Positions 37,545 to 49,119 of a DNA stretch of 64,000 nucleotides are shown here, in pieces. The DNA lies in the NCBI RefSeq assembly GCF_030466405.1, contig NZ_JAGGJF010000001.1, positions 1 to 64,000 of the forward strand, in the 5' to 3' direction. The position numbers and the translations under genes were made by a program. Every line of letters begins with the position of its first letter. The stretch's first letter is position 1. The notes under the pieces are model-generated. The model was not told where the DNA came from. It did not search any database and saw only the letters and a list, made by a program, of their open reading frames with translations. This stretch comes from Pseudidiomarina terrestris (GTDB lineage Bacteria; Pseudomonadota; Gammaproteobacteria; Enterobacterales; Alteromonadaceae).

Positions 37545-37832
37545 ATGAAAACAACAGCCACACCGCATCCTGACGCATTAAAAACTAATCTGGCCCAGCG
37601 CCTCAAGCGCATTGAGGGGCAGGTCCGTGGACTGCAAAAGCTTATTGAGAACGATACCTACTGTGATGACGTTCTAATGCAACTGGCATCCGTGCAATCG
37701 GCGTTGAATGGCGTCGCTAAAAAACTCCTGAGTCAGCATATGCAGACTTGTGTCAAAGCACGCTTAAATGCCGGTGATGACTCGGTACTCACCGAGCTTG
37801 ATACCACCATTGAACGACTGCTAAAACGCTGA
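37545..37832 (+). CDS. csoR: CsoR-type copper-sensing repressor
   Basis: A 95-residue all-helical DUF156 protein. The copper ligands of CsoR are visible as Cys in TYCDDVL (about 40) and HxxxC in SQHMQTCV (His about 65, Cys about 69). That X-H-C pattern points to Cu(I) rather than nickel (RcnR) or formaldehyde (FrmR). It sits directly upstream of copA behind a matching operator, so copper would release it and allow export. Confidence 0.9.
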   Translation: MKTTATPHPDALKTNLAQRLKRIEGQVRGLQKLIENDTYCDDVLMQLASVQSALNGVAKKLLSQHMQTCVKARLNAGDDSVLTELDTTIERLLKR

Positions 37833-37870
37833 AGCCCCATCCATCAACGAATCTACCGACAGGTGACGCG

Positions 37871-40120
37871 ATGAAACAACAGACTATGCAATTACAGCTC
37901 AGTGGCATGAGTTGCGCCGGTTGCGCGAAAAGCATCGAGCGTGCGCTCAGTGAGGTCAATGGGGTTGATGAGGTTCACGTCAACTTTGCCACCGAAATCG
38001 CTGCTGTAAAGGGCACCAAACTCGATGGGCAGAAACTCACTGCCGCCGTAAAAGCGGCTGGCTACGATGCGCAAGCGATAGACCATAGCCAACCGGCAAC
38101 GAGTGACCCGCAAGCACAGGCACAGCAGCGACAACTGGTTAAGTTTATTATCGCTGCCCTCCTCTCTCTGCCACTTTTATACACCATGTTCGGGCATTTC
38201 AGCTGGACTGAAGGGGTACCGGTACCCGACCTGCTGATGTCCCCCTGGCTACAGCTCATGCTGGCCACCCCGGTGCAATTTGTCATCGGCTGGCAGTTCT
38301 ATCGAGGCAGTTACCATGCCTTGCGCGGTGGCGCGGCGAATATGGACGTTCTGGTCGCATTAGGAACCTCCGCGGCATACTTTTACAGCATCTATCTGGC
38401 CTGGTTCGACGACACTTTCCAACGTCATGACGGCCTCTACTTTGAAACCAGTGCCGTACTGATTACTCTGATTGTGTTAGGGAAGTGGTTTGAAGCCCGG
38501 GCTAAAGGCCGCTCTTCAAATGCAATTCGCCAGCTGCTCGAGTTACAACCGGCCAAAGCCCTGCTAGAGCAAGATGCTGATAGCACCAAGCAGGTTGCTG
38601 TTGCTGATCTTCAGGTCGGTGACATTGTCCACGTTCAGCCGGGACAGAATGTGCCCGTTGATGGTGAAGTTATCAGTGGGTCAAGTGCCATTGATGAGTC
38701 CATGTTGACGGGTGAGAGTATGCCTGTCAGTAAATCGGCCGGCGACAAAGTGATTGGCGGTACCTTGAACACCACCGGTTTTATCCGGGTGCAGGTCAAA
38801 CAAACTGGCGCCGATACTGCATTGGCTAAAATTGTTAAAGTGGTTGAACAGGCGCAAACTTCGAAAGCGCCGATTCAACGCTTAGCGGATAAAGTCGCTG
38901 GTATATTTGTTCCTGTCGTCCTCGTCATTGCCTTGCTGACCTGCCTGATCTGGTTCTTCTTGCTGGCCCCGGGTGACTGGCGACAGGCGTTCGAGTCCAC
39001 CGTTGCGGTGCTGGTTATTGCCTGTCCTTGTGCGTTAGGCCTGGCCACCCCTACTTCCATTATGGCGGGTTCAGGACGCGCCGCCCAGGCAGGTGTACTG
39101 TTCAAACAAAGCGCTGTACTGGAAATGACGCATACCATCGACACCATTGTGTTCGATAAAACCGGCACCCTGACCGAAGGTAAGCCTAAGCTGACGGATT
39201 TTGAGCTGCTGAGTGAGACCATATCCAAGTCAGCTATCGCTGGCTTGTTACTGGCTGTCGAGAAGCAATCCGCCCATCCTTTGGCGCAGGCTATTGTTCG
39301 CGGCACTGAAAGTCTCACTGAATCTGCTACAACGCCCAAGGTGAAAGAATTTTCTGCATTACATGGTAAAGGCGTCAGCGCCACTATTATCGGGCTGGAC
39401 GGTGATGTGGAGCACACGCAGCACGCTCTGATCGGTACGCTGCGGCTACTAAAAGAGCACGATACTGTCATCAGCCCCGCTGCGGAACAGCGCTTTCAGG
39501 AGCTGCAACAGCAAGGTAAAACGGTGATGGCCGTTGCCGTCAACCAGCAACTGGTCGCCTATGTCGCGGTTGCAGATACCTTGCGCGAGACAAGTAAAAA
39601 CGCATTACAGCTGCTGCGCCAGCGCGGCCTCAAATTAATCATGCTGACCGGTGATAACCGACAGACGGCACAAGCGATCGCTGAGCAACTGGGCATTGAC
39701 GAGGTCATAGCTGAAGTCTTACCTGAAGACAAAGCCAGGCAAATTAAGCAACTACAAGCTGAAGGCAGGTGCGTGGCCATGGTCGGAGATGGTGTTAACG
39801 ATGCTCCTGCGCTGGCGGTAGCGGATGTTGGCGTGGCGATGGGCTCGGGCACTGACGTCGCTATTGAAACAGCAGATATTGCATTGTTACGCGCTGATCT
39901 GCAGACCCTGGTGCATGCCATTGAGATGAGTGAACTCACACTGCGTAATATTCGACAAAATTTATTCTGGGCCTTCGCTTATAACACATTAGGTATTCCC
40001 ATTGCTGCAGCAGGTCTGCTTGCACCTTGGCTGGCAGGCGGCGCCATGGCGCTAAGTTCGGTGTCAGTCGTACTCAATGCGCTGCGGTTGCAAAGGGTAA
40101 AACTATCGAGTGTGCAATGA
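37871..40120 (+). CDS. copA: Copper-exporting P1B-type ATPase
   Basis: A 749-residue Cu(I) exporter. It has one N-terminal heavy-metal domain with MSCAGC (about 14-19), the transport motif CPC in VIACPCALGLATP, the phosphorylation site DKTGT, HP in SAHPLAQ, and GDGVNDAPAL. E. coli CopA has two N-terminal metal domains, so this is the single-domain form. It removes cytosolic copper to the periplasm. It is 38 bases after csoR. Confidence 0.95.
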   Translation: MKQQTMQLQLSGMSCAGCAKSIERALSEVNGVDEVHVNFATEIAAVKGTKLDGQKLTAAVKAAGYDAQAIDHSQPATSDPQAQAQQRQLVKFIIAALLSLPLLYTMFGHFSWTEGVPVPDLLMSPWLQLMLATPVQFVIGWQFYRGSYHALRGGAANMDVLVALGTSAAYFYSIYLAWFDDTFQRHDGLYFETSAVLITLIVLGKWFEARAKGRSSNAIRQLLELQPAKALLEQDADSTKQVAVADLQVGDIVHVQPGQNVPVDGEVISGSSAIDESMLTGESMPVSKSAGDKVIGGTLNTTGFIRVQVKQTGADTALAKIVKVVEQAQTSKAPIQRLADKVAGIFVPVVLVIALLTCLIWFFLLAPGDWRQAFESTVAVLVIACPCALGLATPTSIMAGSGRAAQAGVLFKQSAVLEMTHTIDTIVFDKTGTLTEGKPKLTDFELLSETISKSAIAGLLLAVEKQSAHPLAQAIVRGTESLTESATTPKVKEFSALHGKGVSATIIGLDGDVEHTQHALIGTLRLLKEHDTVISPAAEQRFQELQQQGKTVMAVAVNQQLVAYVAVADTLRETSKNALQLLRQRGLKLIMLTGDNRQTAQAIAEQLGIDEVIAEVLPEDKARQIKQLQAEGRCVAMVGDGVNDAPALAVADVGVAMGSGTDVAIETADIALLRADLQTLVHAIEMSELTLRNIRQNLFWAFAYNTLGIPIAAAGLLAPWLAGGAMALSSVSVVLNALRLQRVKLSSVQ

Positions 40121-40196: not shown

Positions 40197-41234
40197 ATGC
40201 TCGCAAGTATTATGATCGCCAGTACACTCGCCGCAACGATGTTAACCAGTGCCACGGCAATAGAGCTAGAAAGACTTCCGACCCGCCCGGACGTGCACTG
40301 GATAGGAGTCAGCACGCCTAGTCCTGATGTGGTCTGGATCAGCGGTAGTAAGGCCACCATCGCGCGCAGCGTTGATGCCGGGCAAACCTGGAATTACAGC
40401 ACCCCCTCCAACTCAACCCTGGAGTTTCGCGATATTGAAGGCCTAGATGATCAACATGCCTTTGCCTTGAGCATTGGCAAGAATGGCAATTCGCGCATTT
40501 ATTACACCAACAATGGTGGCGACAGCTGGCAGCTGCGTTACCGCGCCGGTGGCAACCAATTTCTAAATTGCTTTGCCATAGCTCCAGAAACGAATGAAGT
40601 TTGGGGCTTTGGCGATAGTATCGATGGCAAGTGGGATCTGTTGCGCTCTACTGATGGCCGAAACTGGCTGTCGTCAAGCAATGCCGTAGGTAGCCCGCCA
40701 CTTAGTGCTGAAGGCGGCCTTGCTGCCAGTGGCGGTTGTGTGCGTTATGGCAAAAATGCCTGGGCGATTGGCACCGCGAATGCTGCAACCGCACGCTTAC
40801 TTGTTAAACGCAGTTTTGGTATCCGCTTTAAAGCTATAGAAACACCTCTACCTGCGGGTCCCGGTGCCGGAATCGCCAGCGTCTGGCCATTCGCTGAAGA
40901 TCACGTGCTCATGGTGGGAGGTGACCTGAAGCATGCAGAGCGCCGTCCGCGCATCGTCGAGTACAAAGACGATAGTTTTACACCCTTGGCCGAGCCGCCC
41001 CTTAGCGGCGCACTTTATAGCCTCACAGTAACGCGAGATAAACAGCTGATTGTCAGCAATCCGTCGGGCGCAGCCCTGTTGCCCTCGGTCGACAGCAACA
41101 ACTGGCTGCCTCTCAGCGATGCCAACATCTGGAATTCAGCCTGTAATGTTGATGCCTGTTACTTCGTCGGGAAAGAAGGCTACACGGGCAAGCTTAGCTT
41201 GCCAGTAACGCCATCCCCCCAGACACGTGACTAA
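40197..41234 (+). CDS. Exported Ycf48/BNR-type beta-propeller protein
   Basis: A 345-residue protein with a signal peptide (about 1-21). The mature part contains repeats of the form SVDAGQTWNYS, YTNNGGDSWQLRY and RSTDGRNWL, which are BNR/Asp-box repeats of Ycf48-like six- or seven-blade propellers. Bacterial members are periplasmic and little studied. It follows copA by 76 bases but no copper-binding motif is seen; the Cys residues near the C-terminus (CNVDACYF) could form a disulfide. The gene end overlaps the convergent desulfurase gene by 41 bases. Confidence 0.78.
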   Translation: MLASIMIASTLAATMLTSATAIELERLPTRPDVHWIGVSTPSPDVVWISGSKATIARSVDAGQTWNYSTPSNSTLEFRDIEGLDDQHAFALSIGKNGNSRIYYTNNGGDSWQLRYRAGGNQFLNCFAIAPETNEVWGFGDSIDGKWDLLRSTDGRNWLSSSNAVGSPPLSAEGGLAASGGCVRYGKNAWAIGTANAATARLLVKRSFGIRFKAIETPLPAGPGAGIASVWPFAEDHVLMVGGDLKHAERRPRIVEYKDDSFTPLAEPPLSGALYSLTVTRDKQLIVSNPSGAALLPSVDSNNWLPLSDANIWNSACNVDACYFVGKEGYTGKLSLPVTPSPQTRD

Positions 41235-43305
41235 CATTACAAAAGCCGAACCGGGTCAGAACTTGTGCCGCCACTGCACTGCGATTGCCTGAGCGGCATA
41301 AGCAGATGATAGGCCGGTTTTTGAAGTCTTCCCGGTGGTCATAAAGAAACTGTACGAGACGGGTCAGCGGCACGTTCATGACTTGCGCTGGTAATTGCAG
41401 TGGGGTGACCTGATGTTCTTGTTGCTCACGCACGTCAAGTACCAGTGTTTCCGGCCGGCGCAACCATTCCTGCTGCTGTTCGGGCGCAATATTGACCAAC
41501 TGGCAGGGCTGCCCTTCCCCTTTTAATTCGCGCAATTGAGAGGCAATGGCGAAGTCATCATCCCACTTCCGACAGACCAAAGTATGCTCACCTAACACGC
41601 TTTCCAGCACCTGCGGTGCCGCTTGCTCGCCGACAAAGGCAAAGTCCACTCGCGCGCCAGCGGTGGGTTCAATCGGTGAGCTCAATAGATACACCGGCTG
41701 CCGGCTACCGACCCGGTACAAGCGCCGATTGCCGACCAGTAAACAACCGTCCGTGGGCACATCGCAATCGACCGGCGTGGAGCAATCGGCCTGAGCAGCT
41801 AATGGCCAGCCGACGTTATCGCGTTCAGCATCGCAGCCACTGGCACACAGCAACTGTGCCAGCATGGCTGCAGTACTGTCATCGCCTTGTGGCTCTGTGG
41901 TCACTACAGCTTTTACACGATAGTGCTGACACGCTACTAATTTCTCTATCCGGTCAGCGAGTTGCGGGATGGGGTCGATAACGGCCATTTCACGTGCAGA
42001 GCGGTCGATCACCAGATAGCAGCATTGAGCATCGAAGCGCAGCTGCACGACACCGTCCAGCTCACTGTCGAAGTCTTCATTGGTATCACTCAGTAGTAAA
42101 CAGGAATGCCGCAGTGCTTGCGCAGCTTCTTCAATCCGCGCACAAGCCGCGTCAACGGTCGCCTGCTCCGTGGCCGGACCAAAGGACAACCGAATCGCCG
42201 ACTGCGAACGCCAGTCATCAAGGCCCATGGCGTCCAGTACGTAGCTGCGGGTGACTTTTGAACTGCAGGCCGAGCCGGAGCTTACGCGAATATTGGCGGC
42301 GTCAAAGACGTCCATAATATCGCGCGAAGGTACGCCTCTTACAGAAAAGTTCAGGGTTGTTGGCACTGAGTATTCAAACGCATGATTCAGTTCCAGGGTC
42401 GGAAATGCAGTGCGCAAAGCTGCCAGCAATTGCTCACGATACGCCCCCAGGGTCGCTACCGGCTTAAAGACTTGCTGCTCACGGTCAAGCAACAACTCAA
42501 ACAAAGTGTGCATGGCCGCTATACCCGGCAGGTTTTCAGTGCCTGAACGGAAGCCCTGCTCCTGGCCACCACCGATGATGAGTGGCGTAAAGGCAGCATG
42601 TTCGCGTACATATAAAAAGCCAATCCCTTTCGGTCCGTAAAGCTTGTGACCGCTGAATGGCGCATAGTCGATGCTGGTTTGCGCCAGCTGTAACTGCCCT
42701 TTACCAAGCATCTGTACACAGTCGACCATCCAGGGAACGCCTGGTGCATGTTGGCGAATGACCTTTTCAAGCGTCGCTAAATCTTGACGAACGCCGGTCT
42801 CATTATTTACCGCCATGGTTGAAATCATCAAGGCGTGTGGCAAGTGCTGAGCGATAAAATCAAGATCCAGTAAGCCATTTCGATCGACTGGAATCGCTTT
42901 TAACTCAGCCTTTGTCCCTAGTAACTCGTTCCAGTGAGCAAGAGCCTGAGGAACGGCTTTGTGCTCCGTCGCACCGTAGAGAAGGTACTTTCCGGCGGTA
43001 ACCTGGCCCTGCTTCCGCGCTGCGGTCAGCGCAGACAGCACAGCGGTCTGAATGCCTTCTGTTGCGCCACTGGTAAAAACCAGCTGCCCGCGTTCGGCGC
43101 CAATCACCTCACAACCTAAGCGACGCGCATTATCCAGGATGTAACGTGCCTGCAAACCGGTAATATGGCTGCTGCTAGGGTTACCAAACACCTGTTCCAT
43201 GGTATGTGATACGGCACGCGCAATTTGCGGCAACACGGGAGTAGTTGCATTGCAATCAAGATAAATTTCATCATCTTTCGGACGTATGTGTACTGGCGTG
43301 ACCAT
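41194..43305 (-). CDS. Cysteine desulfurase / degenerate MBL-fold / rhodanese fusion
   Basis: The 703-residue protein has three parts. Residues about 13-395 form a class V PLP enzyme of the NifS/IscS type: YLDCNATTP, TEHKAV, NNETG, the PLP Lys in SGHKLYGPKG (about 217), RSGTEN, and the persulfide Cys in SSGSACSSKVTRS (about 343). Residues about 415-590 resemble the metallo-beta-lactamase fold of persulfide dioxygenases (YLVIDRSAREMAVIDPI) but the metal motif HxHxDH is replaced by TTEPQGDD. Residues about 605-703 are a rhodanese domain with the loop CRSGNRS. The protein could pass sulfur from cysteine to the rhodanese Cys internally. The ATG at 43305 is preferred to a GTG three codons earlier. 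It follows the nqr operon. Confidence 0.85.
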   Translation of the reverse strand: MVTPVHIRPKDDEIYLDCNATTPVLPQIARAVSHTMEQVFGNPSSSHITGLQARYILDNARRLGCEVIGAERGQLVFTSGATEGIQTAVLSALTAARKQGQVTAGKYLLYGATEHKAVPQALAHWNELLGTKAELKAIPVDRNGLLDLDFIAQHLPHALMISTMAVNNETGVRQDLATLEKVIRQHAPGVPWMVDCVQMLGKGQLQLAQTSIDYAPFSGHKLYGPKGIGFLYVREHAAFTPLIIGGGQEQGFRSGTENLPGIAAMHTLFELLLDREQQVFKPVATLGAYREQLLAALRTAFPTLELNHAFEYSVPTTLNFSVRGVPSRDIMDVFDAANIRVSSGSACSSKVTRSYVLDAMGLDDWRSQSAIRLSFGPATEQATVDAACARIEEAAQALRHSCLLLSDTNEDFDSELDGVVQLRFDAQCCYLVIDRSAREMAVIDPIPQLADRIEKLVACQHYRVKAVVTTEPQGDDSTAAMLAQLLCASGCDAERDNVGWPLAAQADCSTPVDCDVPTDGCLLVGNRRLYRVGSRQPVYLLSSPIEPTAGARVDFAFVGEQAAPQVLESVLGEHTLVCRKWDDDFAIASQLRELKGEGQPCQLVNIAPEQQQEWLRRPETLVLDVREQQEHQVTPLQLPAQVMNVPLTRLVQFLYDHREDFKNRPIICLCRSGNRSAVAAQVLTRFGFCNVSHVSGGMALLAS

Positions 43306-43344
43306 AATCACCACTTTAGTGTTGGATTTTTAGTAATTGTGCAC

Positions 43345-43557
43345 TTAGTTGATTCGGTTTTTTTGCCACTCTTGTTCTTTTGCCATGCGCGCTTTTTTAT
43401 CATCACAAGGCTCATCACAATCGCAAGCTTTGTCCATGCCAAGGCTGGCAATACCGCCGCAACTACCTGAGATGGTTTTGCGTTGTACAATAAACCCAAC
43501 CGACATGGCCAACACCACAACTAAAAAGATGCCGAAAACTAATAAAAATAACCCCAT
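43345..43557 (-). CDS. nqrM: Na+-NQR maturation protein NqrM
   Basis: A 70-residue protein (the ATG at 43557 starts the membrane segment MGLFLLVFGIFLVVVL). After the single membrane segment it has the conserved cysteines SCGGIASLGMDKACDCDEPC of DUF539. NqrM is needed for correct assembly of the NQR complex, probably by delivering iron to the NqrD/NqrE site. Its place at the end of the nqr-apbE operon is standard. Confidence 0.93.
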   Translation of the reverse strand: MGLFLLVFGIFLVVVLAMSVGFIVQRKTISGSCGGIASLGMDKACDCDEPCDDKKARMAKEQEWQKNRIN

Positions 43558-43570
43558 GCGACCTCCTGAG

Positions 43571-44587
43571 TTACTGCAAAAAAGGTTTGAACGCTGTACT
43601 AGTGTACTCTTTAAACTCGCCGTTTTCACGTGCGATCAACATCACCGCCAGTTGCTGGGCTTCAGCAAAAGCCAAAGCTGCTTCTGGTCCCATCACCGTC
43701 AGCGCAGTCGCGTAGGCGTCGGCATCCATACAGCTGTCGGTAACCACCGTCACCGAGACGAGATTATGCTGTACCGGACGGCCCGTACGTGGATCGATAA
43801 TATGGGAGTACCGAATCCCATTCTGTTCAAAGTAATTACGATAGTCGCCAGATGTTGCCACGGCATTATTACCAGGCTCAATGATACGTTGGGCAGCTCG
43901 CTGGGTGCTTTCCGGCCGTTCGATGGCGATTCGCCACGGTTGATTGCCAGGCTTGCTACCTTTCATGATCATCTCACCACCGATCTCGATCAGGTAGTTC
44001 TGGATCTCCATCTGCTCGAGTAAGCGCGCGACCCGGTCCACGGCATAACCTTTGGCAATAGTTGACAGGTCAACGTAGAGGCCGGGAACATGTTTTTGCA
44101 ATTGATGATTTTCAACCGTTAAGTGTTGATAACCCATCTGCGCCAGCGCAGTGGCAAGCTCTTCATCAGAAGGCACCCGCTCAGGCCGTTGTTCAGGACC
44201 AAAGCTCCATAAGTTAACAATTGGACCTACAGTCACGTCCAGCAGACCGTCAGTTTGCTCCGCGATCTCTAACGAGCGGCGCACCACCTGTTCCAGTGAA
44301 CGTGAGATCACCACCGGCTCAGTCGTTTGCTTTTTATTAAACAGGGATAGCTCTGACTGCGGATCATAGGTCGACATTTGACTGTTGATCTGCTCGAGCA
44401 GGCCATCGACCCGTTCCTTCACTTTCTCCGCATCATGCCGGGGATTCGCCGAGACATAGCGAATATGGTAGGTCGTACCCATAGTATCGCCAGACACCGC
44501 GACCTGCTGCGGCGCATGGCTACAAGAAACGAAAAAGGCTAGCCCTACCAGGGCTAGCCAAATTAGACGTAATGATGATTGATTCAC
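43571..44587 (-). CDS. apbE: FAD:protein FMN transferase
   Basis: A 338-residue ApbE that attaches FMN by phosphoester bonds to Thr in NqrB and NqrC. An N-terminal lipoprotein-type signal (FFVSC, Cys about 22) puts it in the periplasm. The conserved motifs GDTMGTTYHIRY, LDVTVGPIVNLWSFGP, DLSTIAKGYAVDRV and HIIDPRTGRPV are present. It lies between nqrF and nqrM. Confidence 0.95.
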   Translation of the reverse strand: MNQSSLRLIWLALVGLAFFVSCSHAPQQVAVSGDTMGTTYHIRYVSANPRHDAEKVKERVDGLLEQINSQMSTYDPQSELSLFNKKQTTEPVVISRSLEQVVRRSLEIAEQTDGLLDVTVGPIVNLWSFGPEQRPERVPSDEELATALAQMGYQHLTVENHQLQKHVPGLYVDLSTIAKGYAVDRVARLLEQMEIQNYLIEIGGEMIMKGSKPGNQPWRIAIERPESTQRAAQRIIEPGNNAVATSGDYRNYFEQNGIRYSHIIDPRTGRPVQHNLVSVTVVTDSCMDADAYATALTVMGPEAALAFAEAQQLAVMLIARENGEFKEYTSTAFKPFLQ

Positions 44588-44604: not shown

Positions 44605-45846
44605 TTATCCGCCGAAGTCATCCAGCATGATATTTTCGTCTTCCACGCCCAGATCCTTGAGCAAGTTAATCACTGCGGCATTCATTACCGGTGGACCACA
44701 CATGTAGAATTCACAATCTTCAGGCGCTTCGTGATCTTTCAGATAACGCTCGTAAAGAACATTATGAATAAAACCAGTATCGCCATCCCAATCATCTTCC
44801 GGCTGCGGATCAGAAAGTGCCACATGCCATTCAAAGTTGTCATTCTCACGTTGCAACATATCGAAGTCTTCAACGTAGAACATTTCTTTCTTCGAACGTG
44901 CACCGTACCAGAAGCTGATCTTACGATCGGTGTTAATACGACGGAGCTGGTCAAAGATATGCGAACGCATTGGCGCCATACCAGCACCACCACCAACAAA
45001 GACCATTTCCGCCTCGGTTTCTTTGGCGAAGAACTCACCAAACGGACCAGAAATAGTGACTTTGTCACCCGGACGTAAGCTAAAGATATAAGATGACATT
45101 TTACCTGCTGGCAGGCTCAGGTCGTTCGGCGGCGGTGTTGCACAACGCACGTTCAACATGATGATGCCTTTCTCATCCGGGTAGTTCGCCATCGAGTAAG
45201 CACGCACAACTTCTTCATCAACCTTGGATTCGATATCAAAGAAACCAAACCGTTCCCAATCGCCACGGAATTTCTCTTCGATGTCGAAATCTTTATAGCG
45301 AATGTGATGCGGTGGAGCTTCGATCTGGATGTAGCCCCCTGCGCGGAAAGGTACGTCCTCTCCTTCTGGCAACTGCACCACAAACTCTTTAATGAAGGTC
45401 GCGACGTTATCGTTCGACTTCACTTTACAGTCCCACTTACGAATACCGAAGACTTCCTCGGGAAGTTCGATCTTCATGTTTTGCTTAATGTTCACCTGAC
45501 AAGACAGACGTACGCCTTCACGCGCTTCTTTCTTGTTGATGTGGTCACGCTCGGTCGGCAGAATATCACCACCGCCCTCAGTAACTTTCACGGTGCACTG
45601 GCCACATGAACCACCACCACCACAGGCAGACGATACGAAGATACCCGCATTCGCCAAAGCGCCTAATAACTTGGTGCCTGGCTGCGTGGTAATTTTCTTG
45701 TCTTCATCTTCGTTAATCAAAATCTCGACATCACCCTGGGGTACTAACTTTGATTTAGCGAACATAATGATCGCAACCAAAATCAATACGATTAGGGTAA
45801 ACATGCCTACGCCGAGCGCTATTAATGTCAATTCTTGCCCTTGCAT
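44605..45846 (-). CDS. nqrF: Na+-NQR subunit F (NADH dehydrogenase entry subunit)
   Basis: NqrF oxidises NADH and passes electrons through FAD and a 2Fe-2S cluster. The 413-residue protein has one N-terminal membrane segment (about 8-30), a ferredoxin domain with [10 protein letters not shown] and a fourth Cys in LSCQV, an FAD motif RAYSMANYP, and an NAD site [12 protein letters not shown]. Length is standard. Confidence 0.97.
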
Positions 45847-45891
45847 CGACTCGTACCTCTTAATTATCCGTTGCTAGTGTTACTGGTGCTG

Positions 45892-46500
45892 TTACAGGGA
45901 TACGCCAGAGAATGACATAAAGCCCAATCCGATCAGACCCACTGAAATAAAGGTAATACCCAGGCCACGTAAGCCATCAGGAACGTCAGAGTATTTCAGT
46001 TTCTCGCGCACAGCTGCCAAAGCAACAATCGCCAGCGCCCAACCTACACCACTACCAATACCGTAAACGACACTTTCGCCGAAGTTATAGTCACGCTCAA
46101 CCATGAAAGAAACACCACCGAAGATGGCGCAGTTTACGGTGATCAACGGCAAGAAAATACCTAGTGCGTTGTAGAGAACAGGCACGTATTTATCCAACGC
46201 CATTTCCAGGATCTGAACCAAAGCTGCAATTACCCCGATGAACGCCAGGAAGCGCAGGAAACTCAGGTCCGCATCTGGAAATCCAGCCCAGCTCAAAGCG
46301 CCTGGGGCCAGAATGTTGTGATAAATAATATTGTTTACCGGTACCGAGATACCTAACACCACGATGACGGCAACGCCCAGACCAAAAGCAGTGCTTACTT
46401 TTTTCGATACTGCCAGGAACGTACACATCCCCAGGAAAAACATCAGGGCAAGGTTTTCGATGAATACCGATTTTATAAATAAACTTACATAAGCTTCCAT
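45892..46500 (-). CDS. nqrE: Na+-NQR subunit E
   Basis: A 202-residue integral membrane subunit with six membrane segments. NqrE and NqrD form an inverted pair holding an intramembrane iron centre; the Cys in LGMCTFLAV and in [10 protein letters not shown] are the expected ligands. Confidence 0.97.
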
Positions 46501-46510
46501 GATCGGCTCC

Positions 46511-47146
46511 TTAATCCTTTGGCTCTACTTGTTCTGGACGGAAAGTACGCAGTATCCAGATGAACGCGCCAATAACAAAGAACGCGCTTGGCGGGAACAA
46601 CAGGAATCCAACCGGTTGATACCAGCCACCCTCTGAAGCCAGAGCGAAGATTTGCGTACCGAACAGGCTACCTGAACCAAATAGCTCACGGATAAAGCCG
46701 ACAAACAGCAATACCACCGAGTAACCCAGACCGTTACCGATACCATCGAGGAACGAAAGGCCTGGCGAGCTCTTCATCGCGAAAGCTTCCGCGCGTCCCA
46801 TAACGATACAGTTGGTAATAATCAAACCAACGAAGACCGAGAGCTCTTTAGCGATGCTGTAGGCATAGGCACGAAGTATCTGGTCAACAACAATAACCAG
46901 ACTCGCGATAATCGTCATTTGCACGATAATGCGCACGCTTGATGGAATATGATTCCGAATCATTGAGATAAACAAGTTCGAGAATGCGGTAACCATGGTC
47001 AGTGCGATACACATGACCACGGTATTTTCCATCTTCGACGTAACTGCCAATGCCGAACAAATACCAAGGATCTGCAGGGCAATAGGGTTGTTCGCAAAAA
47101 TCGGTCCAAACAGGACTTCTTTCATTTCTTTTGCACTACTAGCCAT
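46511..47146 (-). CDS. nqrD: Na+-NQR subunit D
   Basis: A 211-residue six-segment membrane subunit paired with NqrE. Cys in LGICSALAV and in [15 protein letters not shown] match the ligand positions. Its start overlaps the end of nqrC by 8 bases. Confidence 0.97.
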
Positions 47147-47930
47147 TGTTCAGCTCCCCCTTGCGAATTTTGTCTAAAAGTGGGCCATAAGCCTTGTCGC
47201 TAAACCAGTAATCAACCAGGTATTCAACACCATTACTGGTCAGTGTGGCACCTGATAATGCATCGATATCATGGTTTTCCTGGGCTGGGTTCTTCATCAC
47301 GTCGAACTGCACTTCTTCATAATTGTCGCCGTAGATTTGTTTACCTTCCCACTGGGCCACCCATTTAGGGTTTTGAATTTCACCACCTAAACCTGGTGTC
47401 TCACTATGCTCGTAAAAGTTCACACTACGAACAGTCGACAAGTCCGGTTGCAAAGCGATCAGACCATACATGGTACCCCACAGTCCGTAACCACGGATGT
47501 AAAGCACTAAGGTCTGCAGTTCACCTTGCTCATTATTGATGAAATAAACCTTGGTTACGTCTTCACGCGCGCCGATACCTGCGATGTCCTCGCTCTTATC
47601 GAGTTTGGTGCTCCATTCAGGCTTATTCGCAGCCGCGATGGGATCGTAGTTCACCGGCCCCAGGTCGTTGGCTTGTTCAACCACTTCCAGGGTGTTCAAG
47701 TTAATCAACTTGGTCTCAACCCGCTGGTTAAAGAGTTCAACGACGCTGGTATCCGGCTGCAGCAAGCCAGCGGCGTCAAGTACGTTACGCTGCATATCTA
47801 ACGCTGCATTCTTCTGTTGAATAGGCTTTAAGCCCACAGCTGCACCAGACACGACAACGGCGCAAACCAAACAGAGGATGACGACAACGAGTAATGTTTT
47901 ACTTAACGATTCGTTTTTCTTATCAGCCAC
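47139..47930 (-). CDS. nqrC: Na+-NQR subunit C
   Basis: A 263-residue periplasmic flavoprotein anchored by one N-terminal membrane segment (about 9-31). The FMN attachment Thr lies in the SGATLTS motif (about 224-230), the target of ApbE. It overlaps the nqrB end by 8 bases. Confidence 0.97.
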
Positions 47931-49119
47931 GAGCTAACCTCCGTTTAATGTTCGCCTGTACAACAAAGTGGTCAAACAGCGGAGCAAATACGTTCGCGAA
48001 CAGAATCGCCAACATGATGCCCTCTGGATAAGCAGGGTTCACCACACGGATGAGTACAGTCATGGCGCCAATCAAAAAGCCATAGAAAAATTTCGCGCGG
48101 TTGGTAAAAGATGCCGAGACCGGATCTGTCGCCATAAACATCATACCAAAGGCAAAACCACCAACAACTAAGTGCCAGTGCCAAGGCATCTGGAACATAG
48201 CATTGGTTTCACTACCAATCACATTGAACAGCAGCGACAGCGCCACCATACCCACAAACACGCCTGAGACAATCCGCCAGGACGCAATGCGGAAATAAAT
48301 CAGTGCCAGACCACCAATCAGGATCATCAGCGTTGATACTTCACCTACGGAGCCTTGAATGTTGCCGAGGAAAGCATCCCACCACATGTCCATGTTATCG
48401 AAGTAGTTTTCACCTACCGCAGCCCGACCAAGTGGGGTTGCGCCGGAAAAACCATCGACCGCGGTCCAGACTTTGTCGCCCGAAATCTGTGCCGGGAACG
48501 CAAAATAAAGGAACGCCCGACCGGTCAATGCCGGGTTAAGGAAGTTACGACCCGTGCCGCCAAAGATTTCCTTACCGATGACCACACCAAAGGTGATACC
48601 CAGAGCCACCTGCCATAACGGAATGGTTGCTGGCAAGATCAGCGCAAACAGCACTGAGGTCACGAAGAAGCCTTCGTTAACTTCGTGCTTACGCACTGTT
48701 GCAAAGAGCACTTCCCAGAAACCACCAACGATAAAGGTCGTGGCGTAAATAGGAACAAAGAAGCAGGCGCCATACCACATTTTGGTACCCCAGCCTGCAT
48801 CAGCGAAATCACCGCCAAGAAGATGGAACAGGCCAACCTGCCAGGCATCGGAAAGCTCATAGCCAGTGGCTAACGCCATCGCTGCCTGGTTACCCACGTT
48901 GTACATGCCCCAGAACATCGCCGGGAAAGTCATCATCCACACCAAAATCATGATGCGTTTCAGATCAACATTGTCTTTTACGTGGGTCGAATTTTTAGTG
49001 ACCTTACCAGGCGTATAGAGAATAGTTGCCACGGCTTCATACAGGGCATACCACTTCTCATATTTGCCGCCTTTTTCAAAGTCCGGCTCAATCCGCTCAA
49101 GATAATTTTTTAAGCCCAT
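47923..49119 (-). CDS. nqrB: Na+-NQR subunit B
   Basis: A 398-residue membrane subunit with about ten membrane segments that carries covalent FMN and riboflavin and forms part of the Na+ path. The FMN Thr is in [10 protein letters not shown] (about 227-236). It is 2 bases downstream of nqrA. Confidence 0.97.

Follow-up and report, generated by a model that had tools for sequence, protein, structure and literature searches.

The stretch analysed here, referred to as the window, comprises 64,000 nucleotides of Pseudidiomarina terrestris (contig NZ_JAGGJF010000001.1, positions 1 to 64,000) and carries on its minus strand a gene whose product joins a cysteine desulfurase, a persulfide dioxygenase (PDO)-like domain without its metal ligands and a rhodanese in one chain (Table 1). 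This three-part layout had been proposed from the bare sequence (the original prediction), with no strand given; an alternative GTG start at 43314 would produce a protein of 706 residues. Pfam recognizes the two outer parts, Aminotran_5 at residues 14-386 (E 2.8e-57) and Rhodanese at residues 608-699 (E 4e-9, above cut-off), and has no match at E <= 1 to the region between them; a full-length AlphaFold model contains three folded parts. The one annotated public copy that we looked at bears the generic name "aminotransferase class V-fold PLP-dependent enzyme." The suspicion, raised with the prediction, that annotation had run two separate genes together can be rejected, because the fusion occupies one frame in nearly all relatives. 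In a scan of named GTDB genomes it was intact in 29 of 30 Idiomarina/Pseudidiomarina-type loci, metagenome-assembled genomes (MAGs) included, the sole exception being a MAG (L064) in which it is broken into two frames, and the collected homologues likewise show a true fusion within a single gene.

Table 1. Features of the fusion gene and of the genes directly upstream (positions are those of the window).
Feature	Position	Strand	Evidence
Three-part fusion coding sequence, 703 residues from ATG	41194..43305	minus	Open reading frame list; same fusion in relatives
Group I (IscS/NifS-like) cysteine desulfurase domain (predicted), residues 14-398	42112..43266	minus	Pfam, NCBIfam, structure match
K221 codon, presumed pyridoxal phosphate lysine	42643..42645	minus	Kept in 97/97
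C347 codon, presumed persulfide-forming cysteine	42265..42267	minus	Kept in 97/97
Metallo-beta-lactamase-fold, PDO-like domain (predicted) without metal ligands, residues ~413-596	41518..42069	minus	AlphaFold2, Foldseek, alignment to intact homologues
TTEPQGDD (residues 469-476) where intact relatives read (D)THGHADH	41878..41901	minus	Alignment
Rhodanese domain, residues 604-700	41206..41496	minus	Pfam PF00581, E 4e-9
C670 codon in rhodanese loop CRSGNRS	41296..41298	minus	Kept in 96/97
nqrM, directly upstream of the fusion	43345..43557	minus	Pfam PF04400, E 4.7e-23
apbE	43571..44587	minus	Pfam PF02424, E 1.9e-97
nqrF, nqrE, nqrD, nqrC, nqrB	44605..49119	minus	Pfam Fer2/FAD/NAD, Rnf-Nqr twice, FMN_bind, NQR2_RnfD_RnfE; order conserved in relatives

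Judged by its fold and catalytic residues, the N-terminal domain is predicted to be an active group I cysteine desulfurase. The Aminotran_5 fold is accompanied by the pyridoxal phosphate (PLP) lysine, the stacking histidine and the cysteine loop, and H115, K221 and C347 are kept in all 97 distinct homologues, in agreement with the IscS-type residues originally predicted. The roles of C347 in forming the persulfide and of K221 in holding PLP we take to be those of their IscS counterparts. The best solved structures for this domain are IscS-type desulfurases (3lvj, E 5.1e-57), and among the NCBIfam models (25 listed of 26 families) it falls between NifS, DndA and IscS but below every cut-off (NifS 262.7 vs. 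530.75; DndA 238.6 vs. 480; IscS 230.8 vs. 643.2). The same genome also carries an IscS-like gene next to IscU and a third desulfurase match, possibly SufS/CsdA-like by match length and identity, and the fusion is therefore an extra desulfurase. At the other end of the chain, the rhodanese has the predicted cysteine loop, the catalytic CxxGxR reading CRSGNRS with C670 and R675 present, and its cysteine is kept in all but one of the 97 homologues. Both catalytic cysteines of the cysteine desulfurase-rhodanese (CD-Rhd) type, C347 and C670, thus lie on one chain.

For the middle domain, AlphaFold2 applied to residues 403-612 with 26 sequences returned a model with a predicted local distance difference test score (pLDDT) of 85.6 and a predicted template-modelling score (pTM) of 0.84. 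Foldseek against the PDB placed human ETHE1 (4chl) first at E 2.2e-8, followed by a Burkholderia metallo-beta-lactamase (MBL) protein (4efz), the PDO-rhodanese fusion BpPRF (5ve4) and Myxococcus ETHE1 (4ysb), with modest TM-scores of ~0.55. We predict from the model that the domain has the MBL fold of the ETHE1/PDO kind, which is what the original prediction had proposed. The metal site is another matter. The iron triad of human ETHE1 is given as His79, His135 and Asp154 in the part of the source used here (PMC4383860), and all three ligands are gone from the fusion protein, as they are from every one of the 36 scored Idiomarinaceae(-like) proteins, a set that includes it. Intact homologues show THGHADH, GHT, GD and SHDY in the same alignment columns, which confirms the claim that TTEPQGDD stands in place of HxHxDH. 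One such intact relative (L006) matches BpPRF (5ve3) at E 1.7e-23 across both the MBL domain and the rhodanese. Since the iron ligands are lost, the domain should no longer oxidise persulfide to sulfite. We found no separate PDO that could replace this function, because the only match in the genome to an intact PDO domain at E <= 0.001 was GloB (above the TIGR03413 cut-off); the genome has eight MBL-superfamily matches, not each of them classified.

To describe the spread of the fusion we drew on samples of increasing breadth, the window's own genome being included in each. Within the family, 96 of 246 genomes (17 of 52 genera) carried the fusion at E <= 1e-80; the order gave 32 carriers among 295 genomes at E <= 1e-100 and the phylum 10 among 398 at E <= 1e-75. 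The class sample, searched with an intact form as query, yielded 1 of 369, namely the own genome. The class sample alone would have misled us as to the spread, as the phylum sample contained a carrier from a distant family. The scan of named genomes gave 32 loci: the 30 Idiomarina/Pseudidiomarina-type loci (one titled only as a gammaproteobacterium), one from Aliidiomarina and one from Thermotogota. The nearest named relative is Pseudidiomarina halophila, at 90% identity, and three Pseudoalteromonas plasmid records match 68-74% of the length of the fusion protein; in the copy of Pseudoalteromonas THAF3 the iron triad is kept and the last histidine of the first motif is not.

We then read the seven MBL ligand positions in the 97 distinct proteins, with L006 as the reference. 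All seven ligands were present in 38 proteins; 21 retained the triad but not all seven, having lost the aspartate and/or the third histidine of the first motif; and in the remaining 38 the triad was lost. Two of these last (L132 and L133) belong to one other genus and 36 are Idiomarinaceae(-like), consisting of the window protein, 30 found by scanning named genomes (one Aliidiomarina protein, the other 29 Idiomarina/Pseudidiomarina-type) and five that share genus codes with named genomes. Left out before counting were the split L064, which was kept out of all alignments, L066 (the Thermotogota locus, a match at the level of a plain desulfurase) and the identical copies L145, L160 and L161, while L137, with no rhodanese, and L221, a member of the second family described below whose rhodanese end is not readable, were scored as misses. 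A scatter of homologues (L034, L163, L164, L162 and L137) has an altered first motif or lacks the otherwise common Cys459, which suggests further partial change in other genera.

The distant carrier found in the phylum sample (G1129) led to a second family in which the fusion was identified in 80 of 245 genomes at E <= 1e-100. From 49 of these carriers we read 49 distinct proteins, and HxHxDH occurs in none of them (residues 380-560); a loose HxHxD match in L177 and L226 sits in the rhodanese rather than in the middle domain. The flanking catalytic parts are retained, with the rhodanese loop in 48/49 and the desulfurase cysteine-loop pattern likewise in 48/49, the remaining protein (L214) reading TGSAC. 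The motif GWP is kept in 32 of the 43 long proteins. A short form also exists, in which the two catalytic cysteines are 140-152 residues apart; for comparison, Cys334 and Cys466 of the Pseudorhodoferax CD-Rhd are 132 residues apart according to the part of the published account used here (PMC8931425). In the second-family copy L221 the C-terminal part is seemingly out of frame, from a broken gene or a sequencing error.

A tree of the desulfurase domain with 97 rows requires two changes to explain the triad-lost state, and a second tree, which combines 49 of those rows with 27 from the second family and has one distant IscS as outgroup, requires four changes between kept and lost. In this second tree the second family is recovered as a single clade with support 99, next to intact sequences with support 83; the short form needs five changes, at least four of them by well-supported branches. 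Aliidiomarina and Idiomarina come out separated there, perhaps as a long-branch artefact. These were quick trees with supports from the Shimodaira-Hasegawa-like approximate likelihood ratio test and no bootstrap, and long branches meet in them, so neither the placement of Aliidiomarina nor the precise count of losses is certain; that the iron site was lost more than once is nevertheless supported. Agreement of the intact site with true PDOs in every motif makes it probable that the intact form is ancestral.

In Idiomarinaceae, loss of the site has not released the domain from constraint. Dividing the nonsynonymous rate (dN) of each domain by the gene-wide synonymous rate (dS), for pairs with dS < 2, we obtained values of 0.018, 0.042 and 0.087 for the dead middle domain in three Idiomarinaceae groups (1, 4 and 1 pairs) and of 0.075 and 0.105 for the middle domain of intact groups (3 and 10 pairs); the desulfurase gave 0.036, 0.027 and 0.073 in the same Idiomarinaceae groups. 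By this measure, purifying selection acts on the dead domain. A set of 30 positions in the middle domain is conserved across 26 intact forms, and 17 of these remain so across 30 dead forms, among them G418, Q421, C428, D444, P445, R452, C459 and G499-W500-P501, while the ligand columns scatter; the corresponding retention is 152/175 in the desulfurase and 17/27 in the rhodanese. Moreover, 31 columns are invariant among 26 dead copies. Because its dN is low and these positions are conserved, the dead domain appears to be a trimmed, folded body and not a freely drifting one.

We consider it probable, with good though not complete confidence, that the fusion protein works as a persulfide relay and descends from an older enzyme with three activities. 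Sulfur drawn from L-cysteine by the N-terminal PLP domain would be held as a persulfide on C347 and would move from there to C670 of the rhodanese (by analogy with CD-Rhd, the most likely transfer), and the rhodanese would pass it on to a protein thiol or a small thiol. The iron-less PDO-like domain would be retained between the active ends, perhaps as a folded spacer or as a body for docking. The intact form would instead couple cysteine desulfuration to persulfide oxidation. The best reading of the whole series is that a fusion oxidising cysteine-derived persulfide was repeatedly turned into a desulfurase-to-rhodanese relay. The existence of full, partly lost and fully lost sites, together with the purifying selection, lends support to the earlier suggestion that losing the metal would convert a sulfur-oxidising module into a relay or scaffold; that prediction was right on the parts and largely right on their meaning. 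What goes beyond it, and is likewise supported, is that the loss is recurrent, that it extends outside the nqr-linked lineage and that some lineages lack most or all of the middle domain.

Several observations weigh against the relay. One relative, L137, has no rhodanese, and the Aliidiomarina-like rhodaneses are diverged, none of the five reaching the Pfam cut-off although the loop cysteine is kept. All five distinct Aliidiomarina-like proteins (599-613 residues) are without most of the middle domain, and six of the 49 second-family proteins (510-526 residues) are without it altogether; as it is mostly or wholly gone there, the domain is not essential in some lineages. Besides its ligands the dead domain has lost pieces, with gaps at another 17 columns that intact forms conserve, and the dN/dS values for the dead domain come from just six Idiomarinaceae pairs. 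In the full-length model (pLDDT 80.1), a pTM of 0.58 and a low-confidence linker at residues 400-412 leave the predicted geometry between C347 and C670 unfixed. Lastly, CD-Rhd was compared with the fusion and the second family by its published description, not by sequence.

The position of the gene invites a more specific proposal, that the fusion is a dedicated sulfur donor of Na+-NQR, co-expressed with nqr-apbE-nqrM and feeding the intramembrane [2Fe-2S] cluster of NqrD/E, whose proposed maturation factor is NqrM. As had been noted at the outset, the gene follows the nqr-nqrM operon, and here Pfam confirms apbE and nqrM. The stop codon of nqrM (start codon at 43557 chosen within the listed open reading frame) ends 39 bases ahead of the fusion ATG, and no terminator- or promoter-like site was found at the junction (43150..43700), a weak test in which shuffled sequences are expected to give 0.7 of each. 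The fusion lies after nqrM on the same strand in 31/31 loci (L035-L065). Another 40 loci add eight such cases, all with Idiomarinaceae-like genus codes and three of them copies of earlier ones. The gap is 0-185 bases if the first possible start codons are taken; in six loci nqrM was placed from neighbourhood data and not by an automatic match. Genes farther downstream vary, copA/csoR being present or absent, and the nqrM-fusion junction is uninterrupted. This gene order is real and holds for every Idiomarinaceae(-like) locus examined and for none of the other relatives examined, which is no proof of function. NqrM is described, in the part of the review consulted (PMC12174285), as seemingly required for the [2Fe-2S] cluster of NQR.

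Against such a dedicated donor, most relatives have no nqr gene in their flanks (20/20 loci with ~6 kb, 32/40 with ~6 kb or less at contig ends, and 27/27 loci of the second family with flanks of ~4 kb or less), IscS and IscU are separately encoded in the genome, and our literature search returned no paper with both an nqr operon and a cysteine desulfurase. The adjacency may also be plain synteny, because the YCF48-like gene on the other side of the fusion is conserved in all 31 loci as well. A report, as far as the part used here goes, that active NQR could be produced with no nqrM co-expressed, the host having an nqrM itself, is neutral (PMC6209661). We therefore regard the dedicated donor as unlikely, and as similarly doubtful its evolutionary version, in which an oxidising enzyme of Idiomarinaceae lost its iron site, was captured downstream of nqrM and became the donor dedicated to the Na+-NQR [2Fe-2S] cluster. 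A tie between iron-site loss and nqr linkage can be ruled out, as L132, L133 and the second family have lost the site too and show no nqr gene in their surroundings.

Other neighbours deserve brief mention. The YCF48-like gene (40197..41234, plus strand; a sub-threshold Pfam match) stands tail to tail with the fusion with a 3' overlap of 41 bases, and another genus also has homologues close to the fusion, in the loci L128, L129, L154 and L155. Relatives differ in whether they have, at the same place as here, between the YCF48-like gene and a gene that we take to be SDR-like, the pair of a metal-sensitive repressor and a heavy-metal P-type ATPase (37545..40120, plus strand). In Pseudoalteromonas THAF3 a gene for a TusA-family sulfur carrier (L234:3448-3666) lies two genes upstream of the fusion, and TusA was rejected as a conserved neighbour after tblastn with this one short sequence matched 0/118 context loci.

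Alternatively, the middle domain may merely have been decaying since its PDO activity became useless, drifting and being deleted with no role of its own. The graded series from full site through kept triad and lost triad to deletion is what such decay would leave, as are the 17 columns deleted in dead forms and the disappearance of the domain from the Aliidiomarina-like and short second-family proteins. We think this improbable, as dN in the dead domain is low and near that of the desulfurase, 31 of its columns are invariant and the predicted fold is confident. That the domain was instead re-employed, with C402, C428 and C459 carrying the persulfide on its way from C347 to C670, is very unlikely: the cysteines are common (91/97, 92/97 and 84/97, respectively) and neither C428 nor C459 faces a cysteine in the BpPRF alignment, but forms whose PDO site is intact have all three just as well, so the cysteines did not arise with its loss, they are absent from the Aliidiomarina-like and several second-family members, and the two-domain CD-Rhd, as described in the part of the report used, works with no middle domain (PMC8931425).

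The relay that we favor has its closest precedents in systems that each share part of its architecture. We found no description of a desulfurase-PDO-rhodanese fusion in the literature searched, and what is new is the three-domain architecture, together with the recurrent loss of its oxidase site and, within a single family, its linkage to nqr. The natural series of intact, dead and deleted middle domains follows the removal of an oxidase module from a protein that handles sulfur, and it carries a prediction, that the intact form makes sulfite from cysteine sulfur and the dead form delivers that sulfur; the nqr link offers a testable candidate sulfur source for the NqrD/E cluster. With the group I desulfurases IscS and NifS the protein shares fold and catalytic residues, but it scores below every listed NCBIfam cut-off and has two extra domains. 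With ETHE1 and PDO (4chl, 4ysb) it shares the predicted fold of the middle domain but not the three iron ligands. BpPRF (5ve3, 5ve4, 5ve5), which bears out the earlier statement that PDO-rhodanese fusions are a known type, likewise has an MBL-fold PDO followed by a rhodanese; an intact relative matches it best by sequence across both domains, and it ranks high among the fold matches to the dead domain, but it has no desulfurase and its PDO motifs are present in the alignment. CD-Rhd of Pseudorhodoferax sp. Leaf274 has, like the fusion, a desulfurase and a C-terminal CxxGxR rhodanese in one chain, and is described in the sections of the report drawn on here as a 54 kDa protein of two domains with no MBL part, in which sulfur passes from desulfurase Cys334 to rhodanese Cys466 and then to roGFP2; within those sections, transpersulfidation from desulfurase to rhodanese is demonstrated for this protein only (PMC8931425). 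The three-domain form thereby links two known fusion types, CD-Rhd and PDO-Rhd.

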